The translations under genes and the position numbers were made by a program. A stretch of DNA of 64,000 nucleotides from Semisulcospira habei (lineage: Eukaryota > Mollusca > Gastropoda > Semisulcospiridae), in contig BTPG01000006.1 in assembly GCA_036245525.1 (NCBI GenBank), positions 74,134,727 to 74,198,726 of the forward strand. The letters run 5' to 3'. How positions within the stretch are numbered: position 1 is the first letter of the stretch; every line of letters begins with the position of its first letter. The notes under the pieces were generated by a model. The model made no database searches. It worked only from the letters and a program-made list of their open reading frames with translations, and was not told the origin of the DNA. Of this stretch, positions 8,834-57,344 are shown in pieces.

Positions 8834-10498
8834 ACTTACTTACTTACGCCTGTCACCCCTACCCGGGTATAGGCCGTCGACGAGAGACCTCCAGCAACTC
8901 CTGTCCTGTGCTTCTCCTTCGATTCTACTCCAGGTGGTTCCCAGTCTCTTGATGTCTGCTTGGAGGTCTCGACGCCAGGAGTTTCTCGGCCTACCTCTTT
9001 TCCTCTTTCCCTGGGGGTTCCATGACAATGCCTGCCTAGTGATACTGGAAGCTGGCTTTCTCAGACTGTGACCGATCCATCCCCATCTTCTTCGCCCAAT
9101 TTCATTCTCTGCTGTTATGTGCTCTGTTCTCTCCCAGAGTCTGACGTTGCTGATCTTCTCTGGCCAGTGGATTTTCAAAATTCTTCTAAGGCAACTGTTC
9201 ATGAAGGTCTGTACTCTGTTGACTGTGGTTTTTGTCAATCTCCATGTCTCTGCTCCATATAGGAGAACTGCTTTTACATTGGAGTTGAAAATCCGGACTT
9301 TGGTGTGTTGTGACAGCTCTCTGGAACTCCACACTTTTTTCAACTGGAGAAAGGCTGCTCTGGCTTTACCGATTCGTGCTCTGACATCTGCATCAGTGCC
9401 GCCTTTTTTGTCTATGATGCTCCCGAGATAGGTGAAGGACTCCACCTCCTCCAACGGGGTGCCAGCAAGCAAGACTGGTTCTTCCCTGGTTGCGTTCAGC
9501 CTCATTGTCTTTGTTTTCTGTTTGTGAATGGTGAGGCCCACTTGGGACGAGATGTCAGCAAGCCTCGTGGTCTTGTCCTGCATTTGTTGATGAGTGTGGG
9601 ACAGTAAAGCCAAGTCGTCTGCAAAATCGAGGTCGTCAAGCTGTGTCCACAGTGTCCACTGTATTCCACTTCGTCTGTGCTCTGTGGTCATCTTCATGAC
9701 CCAGTCTATGGCCAGTAGGAAGAGGAACGGAGACAGCAGACACCCCTGCCTGACACCAGTTCTGACCTGGAGCTCTCTGGTGAACTGCCCTTCGTGGATC
9801 ACGCGACATGTCATGCCATCATAGCTGCTCTTGATCAGGCGGACGAGCTTTGTGGGTACACCGTAGTGTCGTAGGAGTTTCCACAGAGTCTCTCGGTCCA
9901 CGCTGTCAAATGCTTTCTCATAATCCACAAAGTTGACGTACAGCGGGGAGCTCCACTCCAGAGACTGTTCCACGATGATGCGGAGAGTGGCGATCTGGTC
10001 TGTACATGATCGGTTCTTCCTGAATCCTGCTTGCTGGTCTCTCAGCTGGGGGTCAACGGAGCTCTTCATTCTCTCTAGGATGATCCTGTTGAAGACCTTT
10101 CCTGGTACTGACAGCAAGGTGATTCCTCTGTAGTTGGAACACTTGCTGAGGTCGCCTTTCTTGGGAAGCTTGATTAGGTACCCCTCCTTCCAGTCAGCTG
10201 GCATCACCTCCTCTTCCCAGATCTTTCCTAACAGTGGGTACAGCATCTCAACTGTTGTCTCTAGGTCTGCTTTCAGAGACTCCGCTGGGATGCCATCTGG
10301 CCCTGCTGCTTTGCCATTCTTCAAAAATGCCACTGCTTTTCTGATCTCTTCCCGGCTGGGTCTGTCACAGCTGATGGGTAGGTCGGTCTCTGCCGGCTGG
10401 ATGTCTGGGGGGTCGGGTGGGCTAGGTCTGTTCAGTAACTCTTCAAAATACTCGGCCCATCTGTCGAGTTGGTCTGCTCTGTCTGCAATAGGCTTGCC
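8834..10498 (-). mobile_element. RTE-like LINE copy 1, 5'-truncated, with 12-bp TSD
   Basis: The 3' end on the minus strand is a short tail of TAAG units. The flanks gtaatgtgtttt at 8822-8833 and 10499-10510 are a perfect 12-bp target-site duplication inside the D2 right terminus. The 5' truncation falls within the RT-coding region, the usual result of target-primed reverse transcription. Confidence 0.93.
8840..10498 (-). CDS. RTE-like LINE reverse transcriptase (5' partial)
   Basis: About 550 residues of LINE protein read without a stop. It starts mid-linker at GKPIADRADQLDRWAEYFEE, because the endonuclease has been lost. RT blocks follow: KNGKAAGPDGIPAE, LPKKGDLSKCSNYRGITLLS, FRKNRSCTDQIATLR, VDYEKAFDSVDR (catalytic Asp), GVRQGCLLSPFLFLLAIDW and LDFADDLALL (catalytic FADD). 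The C-terminus carries AVLLYGAETWRLTK and GKRKRGRPRNSWRRDL. The order and the lack of RNase H fit the RTE superfamily. The open frame runs about 30 codons further right into DIRS terminal DNA, which is not part of the protein. It is the best-preserved RTE RT in the window but cannot retrotranspose alone. Confidence 0.88.
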   Translation of the reverse strand, partial: GKPIADRADQLDRWAEYFEELLNRPSPPDPPDIQPAETDLPISCDRPSREEIRKAVAFLKNGKAAGPDGIPAESLKADLETTVEMLYPLLGKIWEEEVMPADWKEGYLIKLPKKGDLSKCSNYRGITLLSVPGKVFNRIILERMKSSVDPQLRDQQAGFRKNRSCTDQIATLRIIVEQSLEWSSPLYVNFVDYEKAFDSVDRETLWKLLRHYGVPTKLVRLIKSSYDGMTCRVIHEGQFTRELQVRTGVRQGCLLSPFLFLLAIDWVMKMTTEHRRSGIQWTLWTQLDDLDFADDLALLSHTHQQMQDKTTRLADISSQVGLTIHKQKTKTMRLNATREEPVLLAGTPLEEVESFTYLGSIIDKKGGTDADVRARIGKARAAFLQLKKVWSSRELSQHTKVRIFNSNVKAVLLYGAETWRLTKTTVNRVQTFMNSCLRRILKIHWPEKISNVRLWERTEHITAENEIGRRRWGWIGHSLRKPASSITRQALSWNPQGKRKRGRPRNSWRRDLQADIKRLGTTWSRIEGEAQDRSCWRSLVDGLYPGRGDRRK

Positions 10499-11438
10499 GT
10501 AATGTGTTTTGAGGAAACAAAAATTTTTACAGCAGCCTGAGTGTAACGCACGCAGACTTGCCCACAGTCGCACGGACAGACTCTCACGCAACAGACGCAT
10601 ATACCGCCACTGACTCAGACGGGCGCATTCATGCGGTAAAACTCAACACACGGGCTCCCTTTCTAAAGTGACTTTTATACAAGATAAATATACCAAAAAA
10701 CGCTCACACTATCAAGCTATATACATCACATACACATCACACTATCTTTGCCAGGCTAGGTTTTAGTTTCACACTGTCTCCAACCTGTTTGATGTTATTG
10801 CCTGGTTACGTTGGTCCTTCTCATGTCTAGGCGTGAAAGTCCTTCGTCGTACGCTTCTTCTTGCCGTCCTGTCTCTTTGGCATGGACGTCCTCGTTCTCG
10901 TACGGTAGCGCAGTTCTCGCTTTGACTCGGGCGTCTTGGTCCCGGTCAGACTCGCTCTCAGTGAAGAGCTGGAGGGATGACCTCACGTTAGGTCCCACCT
11001 GTGACTCGACGTCTCGGCATCCGTCGTTCCACTCTTTACAAGAACTCTGAATAGACAACAAAAGTCCCAACGTAACACTTGCTAAACACACCACATATTG
11101 GATAAATGAGAAACGTCACGTAACCTGGCTGATACAAATAACTCACACGTTCATTCACACACACACACGTGCTTCATAAACTGTCTATTTCCGTAACACC
11201 CCCATATCTCTGTCACTATCTTGAAACAGACTATAGCCTAACACTCTTGCTATACACTACTCTATACACTGGAAAAGACTATGCTTAACCATCACGTATC
11301 ACCTTCATAGCGACTTAAGCATACACACCTTACATTCCTTTAGTTATCTATCTCGGTAAACAACTGTATACCAAAAACACCAGTTACTTCACTGAATTCT
11401 AAACCAACATAGCTGAAACAAAACCGGTCAACACTATT

Positions 11439-31524: not shown

Positions 31525-34500
31525 TCAAATCTTGTTAAAAATATTGCATGCTCGCAAGAAATTGAAGATTTTGTCCGGGGGAACATCCCGGAACAAAACC
31601 TTCAAGGAGTCTGCTGTAAAGTGTTTATATCTGGTGTCAATTAGGTCAGCACAATACAGCAAAAAGTGTCGAACAGAAAACTGCTCATCACAGGCAAAAC
31701 ACCATGGACGCTCATCCTGTTTAAGTAAGTAAGAGTGCGTAACATACGTGTGCCCGATGTGGAGCCGAGCAAGGACAGTCTCCTCACGGCGGCTGCCGCA
31801 GCGGAAAGGTAGACTGTCAGACAACTTAGGAAGAGCTTCATGAAGCTTGTTCCCTTCCTCTTTGTCCCACTCGAACTGCCACTCGCGGGCCACGTACGCA
31901 CTAATCACAGGTTTAAAATCACTATAGACAGTCTGTGTGTCAGGGACAGGGTCACTGCGGGCACTGTTGGCAGCAGAATCTGCGATTCTGTCGCCTTCGA
32001 TGCCCACATGGCCTGGGACCCAAATAAAAATGATGTCATAATATTCCTTCATCAAGTCCGCGTAGAGCTCTCTAATCTGCACCAGCAGTGGATGGTCTGA
32101 TCCCGCGCCCTGAAGGGCCTGCAGGGCAGAAAGAGAGTCAGACAGAATCAGGAAGTTCCTTTCCCGAGACTGATAGGCATGCTTGAGTGCTAGCAGAATG
32201 GCCTGCAGTTCTGCACTAAATACAGAGGAATGGTCAGGGAGACGGAGCTTAAATGGGCGTCTAGGATGGCGAGAGGACACTGCAGCCGCAGCCACTCTTC
32301 CATCCTCAGACTTGGACCCATCCGTATAAAGACGACAATAGCCAGGAAAAATTGAAAGGAGTTCATTGAGGCTCTGTTGGTATATGGCTGGTGGAGTACA
32401 ATCCTTCTTGTGGGCAGTCAAGTCCAGCAAGATGTCAGGAACTGGTAGTAGCCAGGGTGGAGTGACGTGTTGCAGAGATTCCGAAACTTTGTCCAGGTCC
32501 ACTCCGGCCGCCTGCAGATGAGGTCGGACACGGAAGGAAAGTGGACGGACAGCTCCCGGATGGGCATCGTAAATCTCTGCAAACGACGGGTTAAAAACAC
32601 AATCATAGGCAGGATTTTCTGGATGGGCCTTCAGCTTCAGAACGTAGCTGAGCATGAGGCGGATGCGGCGGAGCCTGAGAGAAGGCTCCCCTGCCTCTGC
32701 ATACAGACTAGGAACTGGAGATGTCCTGAAGGCTCCCAGACATATGCGCAGACCTTGATGGTGAATTGTGTTCAGACGCTGCAGAACAGACTTGGAAGCC
32801 GAGCCATATACCACAGAGCTGTAATCCAGTTTGGACCGAACAAGGGCCCGGTACAGTCGAAGTAAGACGATGCGGTCTGCACCCCAGTCAGTACGACCAA
32901 CGACACGAAGAATGTCGAGGGCCTTCCAACAAGAGGTTCTAAGGTAGTTAACATGGTTGCAGAAGGTCAATCTTTTGTCAAAGATGACCCCCAAAAACTT
33001 TGCCTCTTCGGACACCTTAATTGGCACACCAGCAATGCTCAGGCTAGGTTCTGGAAAAAATTTCGTCTGGTTAGTAAAATGCACACAGACTGTCTTGGAG
33101 GGCGAGAATCTGAATCCATTGAGAGACACCCACCCCTGGATTCGATCAACACACAGCTGCAAGCGCCTCTCAAGGGACGCAAGTCCTCGACCTCGTGCAC
33201 ACAAAGCAAAGTCGTCCACAAACAAAGAGCATTCAGAATCATCTTTGACGGCCTTTACAATGTTATTTATTTTAATGCTAAATAAAACAGGAGATAGAAT
33301 ACTGCCCTGCGGGACACCCATCTCCTGTTCAAAGGAGTCGGAGAGGGTGGAGCCCACACGGACATGGAACGACCTGTTGGACAAAAAATTGTGAATAAAA
33401 ACGGGCAGATGCCCTTTAAAACCCATGTCCGACAAATCAGACATTATACCATGCTTCCAGGTAGTGTCATATGCCTTTTCAAGATCAAAGAAAATTGCAT
33501 AGACATGCTGCTTGTTGACAAAAGCATCTCGGATAAAAGACTCAAAGCGGACTAGATGGTCAGTTGTACTACGGAAGCGCCGGAAACCGCACTGGAGGTC
33601 TGTGATGAGACCCTGTGACTCAAGATGCCACACCAGTCGGGCGTTGACCAAGCGTTCCATAGTTTTACATAAACATGATGTCAAAGCTATTGGCCGGTAG
33701 TTGCCCGGGTCGGAAGGATCCTTACCCGGCTTGGGAATTGGCACAACCACAGCCTGGCGCCAAGATGGCGGAAAATGACCGGTTATCCAGATATGGTTAA
33801 AGGCCTTGAGAAGTACAAGGAGTGAATCCTCAGGCAGATGTGTTATGAGCTGATAATGGATGGTATCTAATCCAGCAGCAGAGTCAGTACATTTCTGCAA
33901 GGCTTGCTGCAATTCTGAAAACGTAAAAGGGGCATTATAGTCTTCCAAGTTATCCGATATAAAATCACAAGCACAAGATTCTCGCTTCTCCTTCTCTCTC
34001 TGGAAGAAAGGTGAATAATGCTCCGTTGAAGAATTATGGGCAATGGTGGAGGCAAGCAAATTGGCCACAGCCTTTTTATCTGTGACCAAACTGGCACCAT
34101 CTCTAAGATGGCCGACAGAAGCCGAGCCACCCTTGCCCCTAATTCTTCGAACAGCCTTCCAGACTTTTTGGGACGGAGTCCTAGAAGATAAAGATGAGAC
34201 AAAGCGTCTCCAGGAAGCACGGCGTTCACGTTTAAAAATGTAACGGGCTTTCGCCCGCTGTCTTTTAAAGGTTAAAATATTTGCTTGCGACGGATTACGA
34301 AAAGCACGTCGCTGAGCAGATTTGCGCATTGTTTGGGCCTTGCGGCCTTCATTGAACCATGGTACTCTCGGCTTCCGAGGGAGTGATGTGGAAGTTCTAG
34401 GGATGGTTTCACCTGCAACATCCAACAAAATAGAAGTAAAACAAGAAACAGGTTCTTCAGCTGACATGACCACCTCCTCTGTAAGACGAGACTGACAGAG

Positions 34501-35001
34501 AGAGGCAAACAGAGACCAGTTAGCTTTCTTGAGATTCCAGCGCCCCACCGGCGAATCCTCCTCACAGCTGACCGATGACAGGACTACTGGGAAGTGGTCA
34601 CTACCACACAGGTCGTCGTGAACCTTCCAGTCAAAGTCCAGCATGAGAGAAGGATCACACACAGTGAGGTCTAGAACAGAACTAGATCCGGAACCTGAGT
34701 TAGAGTATGTAGGTGAGCCATCGTTAAAGACACATAGGTTAAGTTGAGAAAAAACATCTTCTAACATCTGACCTCTGCCATCATAGTGGTCACTACCCCA
34801 AAGGTGAGCATGACCGTTAAAATCCCCCATGAGAATAAAGGGAGAGGGCAGTTGATCTACTAAGTTAAAAATATCATTGCTACAGACCCGCAGTGATGGT
34901 GGCAGGTAAATACTACATATGGTTATGGTCTTTTTTAAGGTAACCCGAGCAGCGACAGCCTGAAGCCTCTGCCTGACGGCATGTCTTCTGCCCATGGCCA
35001 T
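31525..35001 (-). CDS. I/Nimb-like LINE ORF2: endonuclease (N-truncated), RT, RNase H, zinc knuckle
   Basis: A long open frame of 1,158 residues. From about residue 57 come FILMGDFNGHAHLWGS, VLDLTVCDPS and GSDHFPVVLS (the C-terminal half of an APE endonuclease). RT spans about 400-700 with PIPKPGKDPSDPGNYRPIAL, FFDLEKAYDTTWK, GVPQGSILSPVLFSIKIN and LFVDDFAL near 593 (FVDD where FADD or YADD is usual). RNase H has YTDGSKSEDG near 894, SAELQAI, LILSDSLSAL and WVPGHVGIEGDRIAD near 995. A Cys/His knuckle WCFACDEQFSVRHFLLYC is near 1103. APE plus RNase H places it in the I-type LINEs. The first about 12 residues come from ORF1 DNA in another frame because of the deletion, so the native start and catalytic N-terminus are gone. 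Confidence 0.92.
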   Translation of the reverse strand: MAMGRRHAVRQRLQAVAARVTLKKTITICSIYLPPSLRVCSNDIFNLVDQLPSPFILMGDFNGHAHLWGSDHYDGRGQMLEDVFSQLNLCVFNDGSPTYSNSGSGSSSVLDLTVCDPSLMLDFDWKVHDDLCGSDHFPVVLSSVSCEEDSPVGRWNLKKANWSLFASLCQSRLTEEVVMSAEEPVSCFTSILLDVAGETIPRTSTSLPRKPRVPWFNEGRKAQTMRKSAQRRAFRNPSQANILTFKRQRAKARYIFKRERRASWRRFVSSLSSRTPSQKVWKAVRRIRGKGGSASVGHLRDGASLVTDKKAVANLLASTIAHNSSTEHYSPFFQREKEKRESCACDFISDNLEDYNAPFTFSELQQALQKCTDSAAGLDTIHYQLITHLPEDSLLVLLKAFNHIWITGHFPPSWRQAVVVPIPKPGKDPSDPGNYRPIALTSCLCKTMERLVNARLVWHLESQGLITDLQCGFRRFRSTTDHLVRFESFIRDAFVNKQHVYAIFFDLEKAYDTTWKHGIMSDLSDMGFKGHLPVFIHNFLSNRSFHVRVGSTLSDSFEQEMGVPQGSILSPVLFSIKINNIVKAVKDDSECSLFVDDFALCARGRGLASLERRLQLCVDRIQGWVSLNGFRFSPSKTVCVHFTNQTKFFPEPSLSIAGVPIKVSEEAKFLGVIFDKRLTFCNHVNYLRTSCWKALDILRVVGRTDWGADRIVLLRLYRALVRSKLDYSSVVYGSASKSVLQRLNTIHHQGLRICLGAFRTSPVPSLYAEAGEPSLRLRRIRLMLSYVLKLKAHPENPAYDCVFNPSFAEIYDAHPGAVRPLSFRVRPHLQAAGVDLDKVSESLQHVTPPWLLPVPDILLDLTAHKKDCTPPAIYQQSLNELLSIFPGYCRLYTDGSKSEDGRVAAAAVSSRHPRRPFKLRLPDHSSVFSAELQAILLALKHAYQSRERNFLILSDSLSALQALQGAGSDHPLLVQIRELYADLMKEYYDIIFIWVPGHVGIEGDRIADSAANSARSDPVPDTQTVYSDFKPVISAYVAREWQFEWDKEEGNKLHEALPKLSDSLPFRCGSRREETVLARLHIGHTYVTHSYLLKQDERPWCFACDEQFSVRHFLLYCADLIDTRYKHFTADSLKVLFRDVPPDKIFNFLRACNIFNKI

Positions 35002-35602
35002 ACTTTTGGCACTTAAAGCACCGGAGGGGAAGAGGGACGTACTTTTTCACTCTCAGGGAGTAGTAACCTCCCCAGATGGTAGTAGGAGGGGTGGGGGTGC
35101 CAAACGTCAGGATGATGGTAGGGAGACGGATCTCCCCACCACCTCGCTTGGAAGCGAAGCGCCTGACGCAAGTCACACCCTGAGACTTAAGGTTCCTTAC
35201 AAGTTCATCTTCTGACAGTTCTGCCAAAGCTTGATCTTTGATTACGCCTCTTGACGAATTCATAGTTTTGTGGGGTGTGACTTCCACAGGAGTGTCTCCG
35301 ATGGAAGAGAGCCCCAGTAGCCCACTGGAGTGTGCCCGAGTACGGCACTCCACCAGCAAGTCACCAGACCTGAGGCGCTGGGCGTCAGGCCTGCCAACAT
35401 GGCTCCTGAGGGTCTCCCCCACCAGAAAAGGATGCAGCTTGGTAACTGGTTTCTCCTTCACCTTGCTATGGACAATGAGGAAGCGAGGCCATACGGCCGA
35501 CGCCTGAGGTGTCGCTTCCTCACAGTCTGAATCACTGTCGTGTTCAATGTCGGTGTCTATGTGCCGTTTCTGTGCTAGTTTTGGTTTTTTGGTTTTATCC
35601 AT
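34913..35602 (-). pseudogene. I/Nimb-like LINE ORF1 (gag-like), C-terminus lost
   Basis: It begins MDKTKKPKLAQKRHIDTD with an acidic stretch, continues through WPRFLIVHSKVKEKPV and IKDQALAELSEDELVRNLKS, and reaches a zinc knuckle CFKCQKYGHGQKTC near residue 200. After that knuckle the frame runs into endonuclease DNA and ends. Copy B retains two further Cys/His motifs downstream. Such ORF1 proteins bind LINE RNA. Confidence 0.88.
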
Positions 35603-37887: not shown

Positions 37888-38213
37888 CATCTATATATGT
37901 AAAAAACTAGACCGAAAGGGTTGACTGCCAGTGCTTATAATTTAGAAAAAACTACCAAGTGAGTAGGAAAAGCACTGTCAAGGGAGAGAAGTGTGCATGA
38001 TAGACCAATGATCATAGATCTACTTTGGTCCAAGCACACACAAAAAAAAAAAAGATAGGAAAGAGGGGGCCGCTAAGTAAGAGACTGAAAGCAATGCATA
38101 TGGAAGCCCCCCCCCCCCCCGAAAGGGGGCGTATCACATATCCACTGTTCCAGCCCCTAGGTGCATGGAAATGTAGATCTAGGTCCCCCAAGTGGGGGTC
38201 CAGATATTGAGCC

Positions 38214-38257
38214 GGTGTGGACAGCTGTTTCGGTCTTGGCGACCTCGTCAGCACACC
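38214..38257 (-). ncRNA. Type I hammerhead ribozyme motif, unit A1
   Basis: On the minus strand: stem I GGTGTG, core CTGACGA, stem II GGTC-GCCAA-GACC, core GAAA, a four-pair stem III ACAG/CTGT with no loop, cleavage triplet GTC, and stem I closing strand CACACC. All catalytic-core positions of the hammerhead consensus are present and both arms of stem I pair perfectly. The loopless palindromic stem III suggests action as a dimer, as known for other hammerheads with minimal stem III. Confidence 0.88.
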
Positions 38258-38745
38258 ATCGGCAACACTGGAGGAAGAGAAGGAATTTCTGCTTACCTGC
38301 AAAGAAGACCACATTTTACTGTGGTTTGTGCAGGGGCATACATTCCATGCCTCCACCTAGAGCTAAATTTCCATGCACCCTAAGAGAGAACCTACTAAAA
38401 AGGGGGAAGGGGTTGCAGTCGAAATTGTAGTAAAAAACTAGACCGAAAGGGTTGACTGCCAGTGCTTATAATTTAGAAAAAACTACCAAGTGAGTAGGAA
38501 AAGCACTGTCAAGGGAGAGAAGTGTGCATGATAGACCAATGATCATAGATCTACTTTGGTCCAAGCACACAAAAAAAAAAAGATAGGAAAGAGGGGGCCG
38601 CTAAGTAAGAGACTGAAAGCAATGCATATGGAAGCCCCCCCCCCCCCCCCCCGAAAGGGGGCGTATCACATATCCACTGTTCCAGCCCCTAGGTGCATGG
38701 AAATGTAGATCTAGGTCCCCCAAGTGGGGGTCCAGATATTGAGCC

Positions 38746-38789
38746 GGTGAGGACAGCTGTTTCGGTCTTGGCGACCTCGTCAGCACACC
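38746..38789 (-). ncRNA. Hammerhead ribozyme motif, unit A2 (one stem I change)
   Basis: Identical to the A1 motif except for one base in the 3' strand of stem I (CTCACC instead of CACACC), which weakens stem I. The core, stem II and the ACAG/CTGT stem III are unchanged. Confidence 0.82.
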
Positions 38790-38854
38790 ACAGTAAAATG
38801 TGGTCTTCTTTGCAGGTAAGCAGAAATTCCTTCTCTTCCTCCAGTGTTGCCGAT

Positions 38855-38898
38855 GGTGTGCTGACGAGGTCGCCAAGACCGAAACAGCTGTCCACACC
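38855..38898 (+). ncRNA. Type I hammerhead ribozyme motif, inverted unit A3
   Basis: Plus-strand GGTGTG-CTGACGA, stem II GGTC/GACC with GCCAA loop, GAAA, ACAG/CTGT, GTC, CACACC. Perfect pairing throughout. It is a mirror of A1, so transcripts from either strand of the composite would contain a ribozyme. Confidence 0.88.
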
Positions 38899-39172
38899 GG
38901 CTCAATATCTGGACCCCCACTTGGGGGACCTAGATCTACATTTCCATGCACCTAGGAGCTGGAACAGTGGATATGTGATACGCCCCCTTTCGGGGGGGGG
39001 GGGGGGGGGGGGCTTCCATATGCATTGCTTTCAGTCTCTTACTTAGCGGCCCCCTCTTTCCTATCTTTTTTTTTTTTTGTGTGCTTGGACCAAAGTAGAT
39101 CTATGATCATTGGTCTATCATGCACACTTCTCTCCCTTGACAGTGCTTTTCCTACTCACTTGGTAGTTTTTT

Positions 39173-39714
39173 CATCTATATATGTGTATATTTTCTTGTT
39201 TGCTGATGTGTATGTACAAAACCTTCATTACAAGCAAACAAAATAAATAAATAATTTAAATATATACTTATTTGGGTTTAATGTCGAGCAGGCGACCAAT
39301 GCCATCTCATGGCGGTTAAATAAAAAAGATAAAGTAAGTCAAGATACCTGGGACATATAAATGCTCAGTAAAGGATAGATTATGAACATGCACAGATGTA
39401 AGTGTCGTTTGGTGGGTGTTCTCTGGTTGTGGAGTGGGGTTGGGAGTGGGCAGTATTACCATATATGTGTATGTGAATATCAGCATATGAACAAAACCTA
39501 CTTTTCAAACAAATAAAAATAAATAATAAATTTAAATAACTAGGACATATGAATACCAAGTAAAGGATATATTATGAACATGCACAGATGTTTGTTCTGT
39601 GGTTTTGTATGTGGGGTGGGGAGTGGGTGGTATGCACCTATTACCATATATGTGTACATGTTATGTTCACATCATATATGTGTATATGTATGTTCTCATC
39701 TTGTATGCTGATGT
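39173..39714. repeat. Field of dispersed degenerate repeats, part 2
   Basis: The same phrases as 36292-37887 (gatagattatgaacatgcac, gtacaaaaccttcattac, attaccatatatgtg). At about 39265-39325 there is another match to the I/Nimb-like LINE 3' end (tttgggtttaatgtcgagc). Confidence 0.55.
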
Positions 39715-54610: not shown

Positions 54611-55567
54611 GTAAGCTGATTACTCTGTGGTCTTATCTTTGCATAAATAATAATACTGAAAGATAATAATTTCATGGCGCAGAAGATGTCTATCTCGATA
54701 ACTTTCGATTCTGAATTAGACTTGCCAGGGTGATACGCAGGCATAGGTTCCTCATGTGATATGTATATTTGGGATTAAATCAGGGAGAGTGGAAAACTGC
54801 TCCAACTGCAAACAGACCATGCCGTGAATTTCGAGAAATGCCAGTGGAAAAGTGGTCTAACGACCATTTAGATCCAGAGTAATTATAAGTTTCTAGTAAT
54901 TTTGTTTTCAAATGTAGAAGAGGACCATATGTACATAGACCAGTTTTCCTGTCTAATTTTATCCATTTAATGGTGGACTAACTCAAGTTAGATCCAGTCA
55001 TTTGAGCCACAAGTGCTGAACTTGGGCGAGGAAAAGTATTCTTTAGGCTACACGAACCTTTCCCTTTCGTTCAAGACAATACGACTGATAGGGAGAAGCC
55101 TGTGTACGTTTCACGTTCTTAAGCGAGTTGTTTTAAGAACCGATGTTCCGATCAAAATGAGGAAAGTACTGGTGAGAAATTAAGCAAAGAAACCTTGAGT
55201 TTGTAAGGTCGTTGATCAAATTCAGTCATTGCAAAGCTACTTCGCTTTCATTGTCTATGAAGACTTAAAAAAAAGTACCCAACGGAGAAAGAAACACGCA
55301 GTGACGCTTAGAAAAGACGGGTACAACACAATTTATTAATATTTCATGTAAATACCCTTTGTCAAAATAGACAAACAAACAAACAGAGAGATTAGCCGCT
55401 ACTTATCTTCATTGGCAGAAGGAATGTGGCAACTGAAGGAGGTGACGTAACATAAAAGAAAAGGAAGAACAAAAGTGCGGAAAAAGGAAAAATGACGTCA
55501 ACGAAAAATCGTAAGAGAGAGACTCGGGAAGAACCTGAACACGAGAGACATGAGTGTGTGCAAGCAT
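54611..55567. other. Non-coding DNA between THAP exon and LINE copy B
   Basis: AT-rich, with no recognised second THAP exon. A run of unique-looking sequence borders the abrupt LINE breakpoint near 55568. Confidence 0.45.
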
Positions 55568-57344
55568 GCCATACTTCCAGGTAGTGTCATATGCCTTCTC
55601 AAGATCGAAGAAAATTGCATAGACATGCTGCTTGTTGACAAAAGCATCTCGAATAAATGATTCAAAGCGGACTAAATGGTCAGTTGTACTACGGAAGCGC
55701 CGGAAACCGCACTGGAGGTCTGTGAGGAGACCCTGTGACTCAAGATGCCACACCAGGCGGGCGTTGACCAGGCACTCCATAGTTTTACATAAACATGATG
55801 TCAAAGCGATAGGCTGGTAGTTGCCCGGGTCGGAAGGATCCTTACCCGGCTTGGGGATCGGTACAACCACAGCCTGGCGCCAAGATGGCGGGAAATGACC
55901 AGTTCTCCAGATATGGTTAAAGGCCTTGAGAAGTACAAGGAGTGACCTCTCAGGCAGATGCGTTAGGAATTGATAGTGGACGGTATCTAGGCCAGCAGCA
56001 GAGTCATTACATTTCTGCATGGCTTGCTGCAATTCTGATAATGTAAAAGGGGCATTATAGTCTTCTGAGTTATCGGACTTAAAATCACAAATACGAGACT
56101 CTCGCTTCTCCTTCTCTCTCTCGAAGAAGGGTGAATAATGCTCTGTTGAAGAATTATGGGCAATGGTGGAGGCAAGCAAATTGGCCACAGCTTTTTTATC
56201 TGTGACCAAGCTGGCACCATCTCTAAGATGGCCGACAGAAGCCGAGCCATCCCTGCCCCTAATTCCTCAAACAGCCCTCCATACTTTCTGGGACGGAGTC
56301 CGAGAAGTTAAAGATGAGATGAAGCGTCTCCAGGAAGCACAGCGTTCACGTTTAAAAATGTAATGGGCTTTCGCCCTCTGTCTTTTAAAGGTTAAAATAT
56401 TCACTTGCGACGGAGTACGGAAAGCACGTCGCTGAGCAGATTTGCGCGCTTTTTGGGCCTTGCGGCACTCCTCATTGAACCATGGTACTCTCGGCTTCCG
56501 AGGGACTGATGCGGAAGTTTTAGGGATGGTTTCACCCGCTACGTCCAACAAAATAGAAGTAAAAGAAGAAACAGGTTCTTCAGCTGACATGACCACCTCC
56601 TCTGTAATACGAGACTGACAGAGGGAGGCGAACAGAGGCCAGTCAGCTTTCTTGAGATTCCAGCGCCCCACCGGCGGATCCTCCTCACAGCTGATCGATG
56701 ACAGGACTACTGGGAAGTGGTCACTACCACACAGGTCGTCGTGAACTTTCCAGTCAAGTCAAAGTCCAGAATAAGAGAAGGATCACACACAGTGAGGTCT
56801 AGAACAGAACTAGATCCTGAACCTGAGTTAGAGTATGTAGGTGAGCCATCGTTAAAGACACATAGGTTAAGTTGAGAAAAAAAAATCTTCTAACATCTGA
56901 CCTCTGCCATCATAGTGGTCACTACCCCAAAGGTGAGCGTGACCGTTAAAATCTCCCATGAGAATAAAGGGAGGGGGCAGTTGATCTACTAAATTTAAAA
57001 AAATCATTACTACAGACCCGCAGGGATGGTGGCAGGTAAATACTGCATATGGTTATGGTCTTCTTCAAAGTAACCCGAGCTGCGACAGCCTGAAGACAGG
57101 TGTCGATGCTAACGGGGCTACATAAAATTTGGCTACTAATGAGAAGAGCCACTCCACCCGAGTGCCTCTCCGAATCAGAGCCTTTATGTATAACGTTAAA
57201 ACCATTAAAAGACACAGGGTCAGACGTCTTCAGGTAAGTCTCCTGAAGAGATATTACTGAGGGGTTATAGCACTTGGCTAAAAGACGTAATTCCTCAAAG
57301 TTAGCTTGAAAACCACGACAATTCCACTGAAGCAGAGAGTCCAT
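55568..57344 (-). pseudogene. I/Nimb-like LINE ORF2 remnant: endonuclease and N-terminal RT (copy B)
   Basis: ORF2 starts at 57344 as MDSLLQWNCRGFQANFEELR, the intact APE endonuclease start with the catalytic Asn, then VISLQETYLK and GGVALLIS. It shifts frame near 56960 and again near 56730, resumes GRWNLKKADWPLFASLC (56671-56267), then RT pieces PIPKPGKDPSDPGNYQPIAL and FFDLEKAYDTTWK (56209-55568). It ends right after RT motif A. It supplies the endonuclease start missing from copy A. Confidence 0.88.

Follow-up and report, generated by a model that had tools for sequence, protein, structure and literature searches.

The 64,000-nucleotide stretch of Semisulcospira habei DNA analysed here (the window; contig BTPG01000006.1) contains a 1.27-kb insert at 37901-39172. 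It is built from a unit of about 530 bp, present in three pieces that all carry a type I hammerhead ribozyme motif. The insert is very probably a young copy of a non-autonomous, ribozyme-bearing retroelement of the metazoan retrozyme kind, mobilised by PLE-B, an abundant, autonomous and probably Penelope-like element (PLE) of the same genome. The sequence evidence for this reading is the copy number of the family, its array form, its target duplications, and the outer ends A and B and twin stem-loop found in both the unit family and PLE-B. Self-cleavage of the motif and expression of the unit, which also belong to the reading, are predicted. A first-pass annotation of the window had already proposed a ribozyme-bearing retroelement with a target duplication, and that proposal is upheld. 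Beyond it, we find a family with thousands of motif copies, head-to-head units, and ends at two different start sites.

Structure of the insert

The insert is bounded by a 13-bp target site duplication (CATCTATATATGT; left copy 37888-37900, right copy 39173-39185). When joined, its flanks align across the junction to an insert-free neighbouring repeat at 39342-39538 (68% identity, 11 gap openings). Copy 1 (37901-38430) is a full unit with its sense on the minus strand, and its outer 3′ end at 37901 is site B, directly after GGTCTAGTTTTTT. Copy 2 (38431-38790, minus strand) is a 5′-truncated direct repeat of copy 1. Copy 3 (38791-39172, plus strand) is inverted and lies head-to-head with copy 2; its outer 3′ end at 39172 is site A, directly after GGTAGTTTTTT. 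Repeat-family analysis gives a unit spacing of 528-532 bp, and the GC content of the insert is 48.6%. No long open reading frame (ORF) was found in the insert and none is long enough for a reverse transcriptase (RT) plus a GIY-YIG endonuclease; the longest ATG frames, of 100 and 82 aa, are the same frame passing through the ribozyme in two copies. The duplication, the insert-free neighbour and the lack of a long frame together bear out the earlier description of a small, ORF-less insert.

The hammerhead motifs of copy 1 (38214-38257, minus strand) and copy 3 (38855-38898, plus strand) are perfect, and that of copy 2 (38746-38789, minus strand) has one stem I mismatch (CTCACC). These are the three 44-nt sequences, two perfect and one with a single stem I change, that the annotation had reported, and no such motif appears in 100 shuffles. 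Stem-loops read from the sequence surround sites A and B. Stem-loop 1 of copy 1 (AGTGCTT/AAGCACT; 37930-37976, minus strand) has site A in its loop, and a complete stem-loop 2 (GCAGTC/GACTGC; 38415-38460, minus strand) spans the boundary between copies 2 and 1 and holds site B within its loop. Copy 2 has its own stem-loop 1 at 38461-38507 (minus strand). A 25-bp inverted repeat (92%) inside the unit, at 38160-38184 and 38355-38379, encloses the hammerhead and could hold the cut ends together.

Outer ends and target duplications

Forty-eight loci were examined: the window, the 39 best BLAST loci and eight from the motif list (L072 and L073 are one element). Young multi-unit copies are over-represented in this sample because its main 39 loci are the best BLAST matches. 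Two loci were dropped for edges or N, leaving 46 usable.

Units lie head-to-head in 26 of the 46 loci, both outer ends being 3′ ends. Allowing for several nt of scatter, these ends cluster at two places in the unit that are separated by 45 nt: A, after GGTAGTTTTTT (about position 274), and B, after GGTCTAGTTTTTT (about 319). Both ends fall at A or B in 21 of the 26 loci, and every one of the 21 combines one A with one B (14 AB, 7 BA, no AA and no BB). The window insert is among them, with B on the left and A on the right. We infer that A and B are RT start sites. Twenty loci were scored as one-directional, with the end at A in 12, at B in seven and elsewhere in one (L047). The score of L047 stems from the choice of segment; other alignments show this locus to be head-to-head with A and B ends, and it stands outside the count of 21. 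L048 is one of five head-to-head loci with an end outside A and B; that end (248) falls a single base beyond the cleavage site of the ribozyme, as though priming had started from the 3′ end of a cleaved RNA.

The longest words shared by the two flanks have a median of 13, against 5 in mismatched flanks. Words of at least 11 occur in 72% of cases compared with 0.1% in mismatched flanks, and 26% are 8 or shorter; the target duplications are mostly 11-15 bp. The 5′ ends (63 in 38 loci) are evenly spread along the unit (p 0.18). An even spread would put 1.3 of the 63 at 5 nt or less from the cleavage site; none is there, and no pile-up is seen of the kind that run-off from a cleaved linear RNA would give. 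The 3′ ends of the units read as T runs, not poly(A).

A candidate helper in the same genome

A search of the genome for GIY-YIG endonucleases gave 35 matches among the 150 scored of 1583 candidates. At locus L102, a unit copy adjoins an RT-like stretch and a GIY-YIG frame. The frame was confirmed by Pfam; the RT-like stretch (YKRYIDDG) was named by eye, and no Pfam model matched it. We call the element PLE-B. It is classed as probably Penelope-like by its endonuclease, its YKRYIDDG motif and its layout rather than by a tree. With the L102 RT-like stretch as query, all 150 scored of 2088 candidates matched, most with an identical score. The open frames of PLE-B reach 2136 aa, with 1152 aa recurring, and its copies lie partly in tandem about 4.7 kb apart and partly head-to-head. 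Six head-to-head PLE-B arrays were hand-picked from the match list as close opposite-strand pairs or long arrays. All six join an A end (GGGTACTT...) to a B end (GGTCTGGATTGAT...), with small variants, and share flank words of 12, 13, 13, 12, 14 and 14 bp. Inverted ends with an optional 'tail' arising from two adjacent sites, a signature of Penelope mobilisation, are thus seen in both the unit family and PLE-B.

The one PLE-B intergenic piece compared with the unit, L109, is the 2 kb between two tandem copies. Unit positions 245-344 align locally to L109 1694-1788 with a score of 64; the highest scores are 45 among 200 shuffles of the tail and 41 among 29 pieces of the window. Furthermore, among 36 unit windows aligned to L109, the five that start at 210-270, over the tail, score 47-64, and the other 31 score no higher than 44. 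Judged from these alignments, L109 resembles the unit only around A and B.

The similarity of the two tails rests on this local alignment with its shuffles and on folds. The folds of the unit and of L109 each show a pair of neighbouring hairpins, the first loop holding A and the second B, and the distance from A to B is 45 nt in each case. Using GGCAGTC and GACTGC as anchors we found 66 tails, of which 65 were distinct and of suitable length; the 59 with stem 1 at no more than one mismatch were counted and six were dropped. Only 7 of 413 stem 1 cells are unpaired in the 59 tails. Double changes keep the pairing (AGTGCTT/AAGCACT, AGTGCTA/TAGCACT, AGTGCCT/AGGCACT and, in PLE-B, AAGCGTG/CACGCTT). 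Stem 2 (GCAGTC/GACTGC) is invariant because it served as the search anchor. The first-pass annotation had offered a Penelope link as a possibility, and it gains support from PLE-B, in the same genome, with its shared start region, end rule and array form. We note that TTGACAAAGGGTATTTACCCGAAA, at L109 1634-1658, resembles a hammerhead with C3 and G8 both changed; we do not claim it as one.

We consider it unlikely that the unit is simply the pseudo-long terminal repeat (pLTR) of an autonomous Penelope element, with no separate parasite, as the abutment of a unit copy and a PLE-B fragment in L102 might suggest. The PLE-B intergenic piece is similar to the unit around the tail only, and the 517-544-bp units repeat with no room for an RT ORF between them. 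The join in L102 falls where the unit has its own 3′ end site; the match to L089, another PLE-B copy, stops at this point, with only 53 nt of L089 beyond. L102 was set aside as a native pLTR-ORF junction after the comparison with L089.

Twin priming likewise yields 5′ inversions, and the window contains ORFs of long interspersed nuclear elements (LINEs). Mobilisation by a LINE, with inversions from twin priming, is nevertheless very improbable: the outer ends lie at two preferred internal sites, one of each in all 21 arrays, PLE-B has the same end rule and a similar start region, and the 3′ ends lack poly(A). A LINE-dependent short interspersed nuclear element would be primed from one end and have a single 3′ end, whereas two alternative internal ends are found here.

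The family and its hammerhead motif

The annotation had suggested looking for further copies, and a search of the 1.98-Gb assembly (507 contigs) with the motif pattern returned 6,571 matches, compared with none for the reversed control. One hundred motif places were taken from this list in listing order. Of these, 42 fall into 14 clusters of at least two and 58 are single. Opposite-strand neighbours are head-to-head in 10 cases and tail-to-tail in none. Core position N7 is A in 72 of the motifs, C in 18, T in six and G in four, and is uniform within each of the 14 clusters. In L069-L076, which carry the A of the majority subfamily, the ends lie at about 252-267 and 305-320.

Constraint on the ribozyme was counted in 38 loci (the window and 37 picked with BLAST, independently of the motif). 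Mismatches number 3 in 1392 at nine core positions and 27 in 5882 over the stems and core without N7 and loop II. The remainder of the unit, outside two homopolymer tracts, shows 1282 in 67354. N7 shows 50 mismatches in 153. Of the core bases, only N7 is known to be free; variation there with conservation at the other core positions is therefore the pattern expected from a working ribozyme.

These data also bear on the idea that the units are plain satellite DNA, amplified by recombination, with the ribozyme as a relic. The units are tandem, and metazoan hammerheads were first observed as satellite repeats, according to the available text of PMC7229834. The copies are dispersed, though, with flank words and preferred ends as described above, over half of the listed motifs stand singly outside arrays, and the core is conserved; we regard this explanation as the least probable of those considered.

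The motif has a CUGANGA/GAA core, three stems, a cleavable H17 and an open stem I. A type I descriptor that we built from CTGANGA, stem II, GAAA, stem III and stem I recovers the two perfect motifs from the window and nothing from 40 dinucleotide shuffles. A chance origin of the motifs is ruled out by the two sets of shuffles; the loose core pattern taken alone is not significant in the window (7 seen, 4.29 expected). Rfam reports no hammerhead at its gathering cut-off, nor in a scan of 1451 bases at E ≤ 10. An 86-base scan with laxer filters, covering 38855-38898 only of the three motifs, matches that site to RF00163 (Hammerhead_1) over model positions 1-45 of 45, with 22.7 bits and E 8e-4. 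The first-pass annotation had named a covariance score below threshold as grounds for dropping the ribozyme. In formal terms the scores are below threshold, yet a full-length match under the cut-off is present at 38855-38898. We rejected the gathering cut-off as sole judge because the larger scan missed the full-length match that the short scan shows. The Rfam hammerhead consensus likewise has a palindromic, loop-less stem III. In minimum free energy (MFE) prediction, only a bare pair of 44-mers folds as a double hammerhead, and a 63-nt motif with flanks prefers another fold; MFE folding leaves ribozyme activity unsettled.

A second type I hammerhead family (CTGAAGAGCTC...GAGCGAAACCGGT) was found by the descriptor in L092 and L107, with all three stems changed and still paired. 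Its pattern has 67 matches in the genome, some places being counted twice through the gap, and none in the control. The Rfam scan of L107 gives two hammerhead matches under the cut-off (24.2 of 34 and 23.7 of 52 bits). At L107 2809-4251 (C1:96265500-96271500), the second family adjoins a fragment of another GIY-YIG element. Its copies there are direct and inverted in an order that looks tail-to-tail, unlike the first family, and the element is without the GGCAGTC...GACTGC hairpin.

Outside this genome, the exact motif was not found in IMG/VR, a near-exact motif was not found in GTDB contigs and the whole insert was not found in phage records, collections that may omit the window's own genome. 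A looser motif pattern matched 21 IMG/VR stretches. Elsewhere in the window, RT ORFs lie at 8840-10642, 31525-35046 and 55409-56266 (minus strand). The frame at 31525-35046 encodes 1173 aa with endonuclease, RT and RNase H domains. Among the 120 relatives listed for a LINE in the window, the only animal-named one is from Patella caerulea (48% identity), and several are named for clam symbiont metagenomes.

Uniformity of units within arrays

For the comparison of units within and between arrays, 89 complete units (517-544 bp, mean 527.6) were taken from 35 loci; all have an intact motif, damaged units being left out. Divergence is 0.44% within arrays and 0.36% between the two strands of one array, compared with 1.85% between arrays. 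The nearest neighbour of a unit lies in its own array for 64 of 71 units, and for 36 of 37 units the best match on the opposite strand of that array is nearer than every unit of the other arrays. Of 442 site-by-array combinations at family-polymorphic sites, 436 are uniform, whereas 50 shuffles give a mean of 285 and a maximum of 307. Ten arrays contain 81 variable sites, 77 of which vary in a single unit only, and 66 of the 81 variants are private to their array. As far as sequence can tell, a circle or a very uniform multimer fits as the template, and a pool of mixed linear monomers does not.

Several observations weigh against the retrozyme and helper reading. One is the make-up of the locus sample, with its excess of young multi-unit copies. 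One end lies outside A and B in 5 of the 26 head-to-head loci, 7 of the 71 units have their nearest neighbour in another array, and 15 of the 81 within-array variants recur in other arrays. A blastn comparison of the unit with L109 (words of 7, E ≤ 1) returned only low-complexity matches and did not report the tail similarity. The RF00163 score stays under its curated cut-off of 34 bits, L033 and L037, with many motif copies each, have no Rfam hammerhead at E ≤ 1, and the predicted minimum fold of one or two motifs with their flanks is not a hammerhead. Finally, no canonical hammerhead core was found on the sense strand of the 2-kb L109. PLE-B forms tandem and head-to-head arrays without a recognised hammerhead in that piece, and concatemers therefore do not prove ribozyme-made circles.

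This last point favours a rival that keeps the element and the helper but takes as template a multimeric transcript, read through from an existing array and left uncleaved, with the ribozyme incidental. The recurring variants speak for it as well, as do hammerhead mutants of the anole PAc element, which left insertion in vitro unchanged according to the available text of PMC11167929. The near-complete uniformity across both strands and the confinement of most variants to single units are what one circle would give, and a ribozyme core kept while N7 drifts does not suit an incidental ribozyme. We rate the uncleaved template as a serious contender whose chances fall somewhat below even.

Proposed mechanism

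In the mechanism that we propose for the retrozyme and its helper, the hammerhead, probably dimerised through a palindromic stem III (ACAGCUGU), would cut multimeric transcripts into 532-nt units. These would be circularised by a host ligase and then be used as template. The PLE-B protein, probably a dimer, would bind the twin stem-loop, and the nicked target strands would prime reverse transcription, one in each loop. The two cDNAs would grow upstream on the RNA, over as many as several units, and joining of their free ends in the middle would give a head-to-head concatemer.

A circular RNA template is plausible, not proven. The simplest reading of the A/B rule is one RNA and two protein subunits, with one start for each target strand. 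The ribozyme may be dispensable for concatemers; it may free and close the short RNA, or only trim it. We put forward the complete scheme tentatively, with odds somewhat against it: a ribozyme-made RNA circle bears a helper-like twin stem-loop, two Penelope-type RT subunits start one per loop, primed by opposite strands of one target cut, and both roll round the circle to make a head-to-head DNA concatemer. The two-start rule would then be the general Penelope route to inverted repeats.

Relation to known retroelements

The comparisons here draw on the available parts of the papers cited. Cervera and de la Pena 2020 (PMC7229834) proposed that PLEs help animal retrozymes to move, on the grounds of shared features and co-existence, and called them strong candidates because both carry type I hammerheads, occur in tandem and co-exist. 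Like the metazoan non-LTR (long terminal repeat) retrozymes of that paper, the insert has tandem units without a long ORF, a type I hammerhead, GC below 50%, target duplications longer than 4 bp and a weak palindromic stem III as in salamanders. The unit of 532 nt is longer than the roughly 170-400 nt reported for them, we saw no head-to-head inverted arrays with A/B ends described in the available sections of PMC7229834, and the present proposal names a specific helper whose start module is similar. Plant LTR retrozymes (via PMC7229834) are likewise non-autonomous, with a hammerhead and a circular RNA model, but have type III hammerheads, LTRs and 4-bp target duplications, and a Gypsy helper is proposed for them. 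The minimal hammerheads of Penelope elements (Lunse 2017 and Cervera 2014, via PMC7761336) are also type I with a weak helix III and are thought to act as dimers, a likeness by description only.

Frangieh et al. 2024 (PMC11167929) report cutting and extension of both target strands by a Penelope element of anole. Its reverse transcription begins at two neighbouring internal sites, and the stretch from one to the other is the 'tail'. The insert shares with PLEs (PAc/Poseidon of anole, PMC11167929; Adineta Penelope, PMC3846280) the tandem and inverted copies, the target duplication and a 'tail' on one inverted end, of 30-40 bp there and 45 nt here. Two adjacent internal RT start sites, with both target strands cut and extended, are a further likeness, the start sites here being putative. 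The insert differs from PLEs in having no RT or endonuclease ORF. It also differs from those described in the available text of PMC11167929 and PMC3846280 in that ends at A and B always use different sites, in 21 of 21 unit arrays and 6 of 6 PLE-B arrays. What appears to be new is that the A/B ends always differ in the head-to-head arrays of both parasite and helper, with the sites in neighbouring hairpins. A literature search over titles and opening abstracts, with supplements outside its reach, found neither the A/B rule nor a start module shared by a retrozyme and a PLE stated.

The route by which animal retrozymes transpose has so far been a guess. The locus offers sequence evidence for one retrozyme-Penelope helper pair, in one genome, and the proposed helper shares with the unit a similar RNA module of about 100 nt that is open to testing. 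The rule of one A and one B would give a simple physical reason for inverted pLTRs and their optional 'tail': two starts on one RNA, one for each strand.
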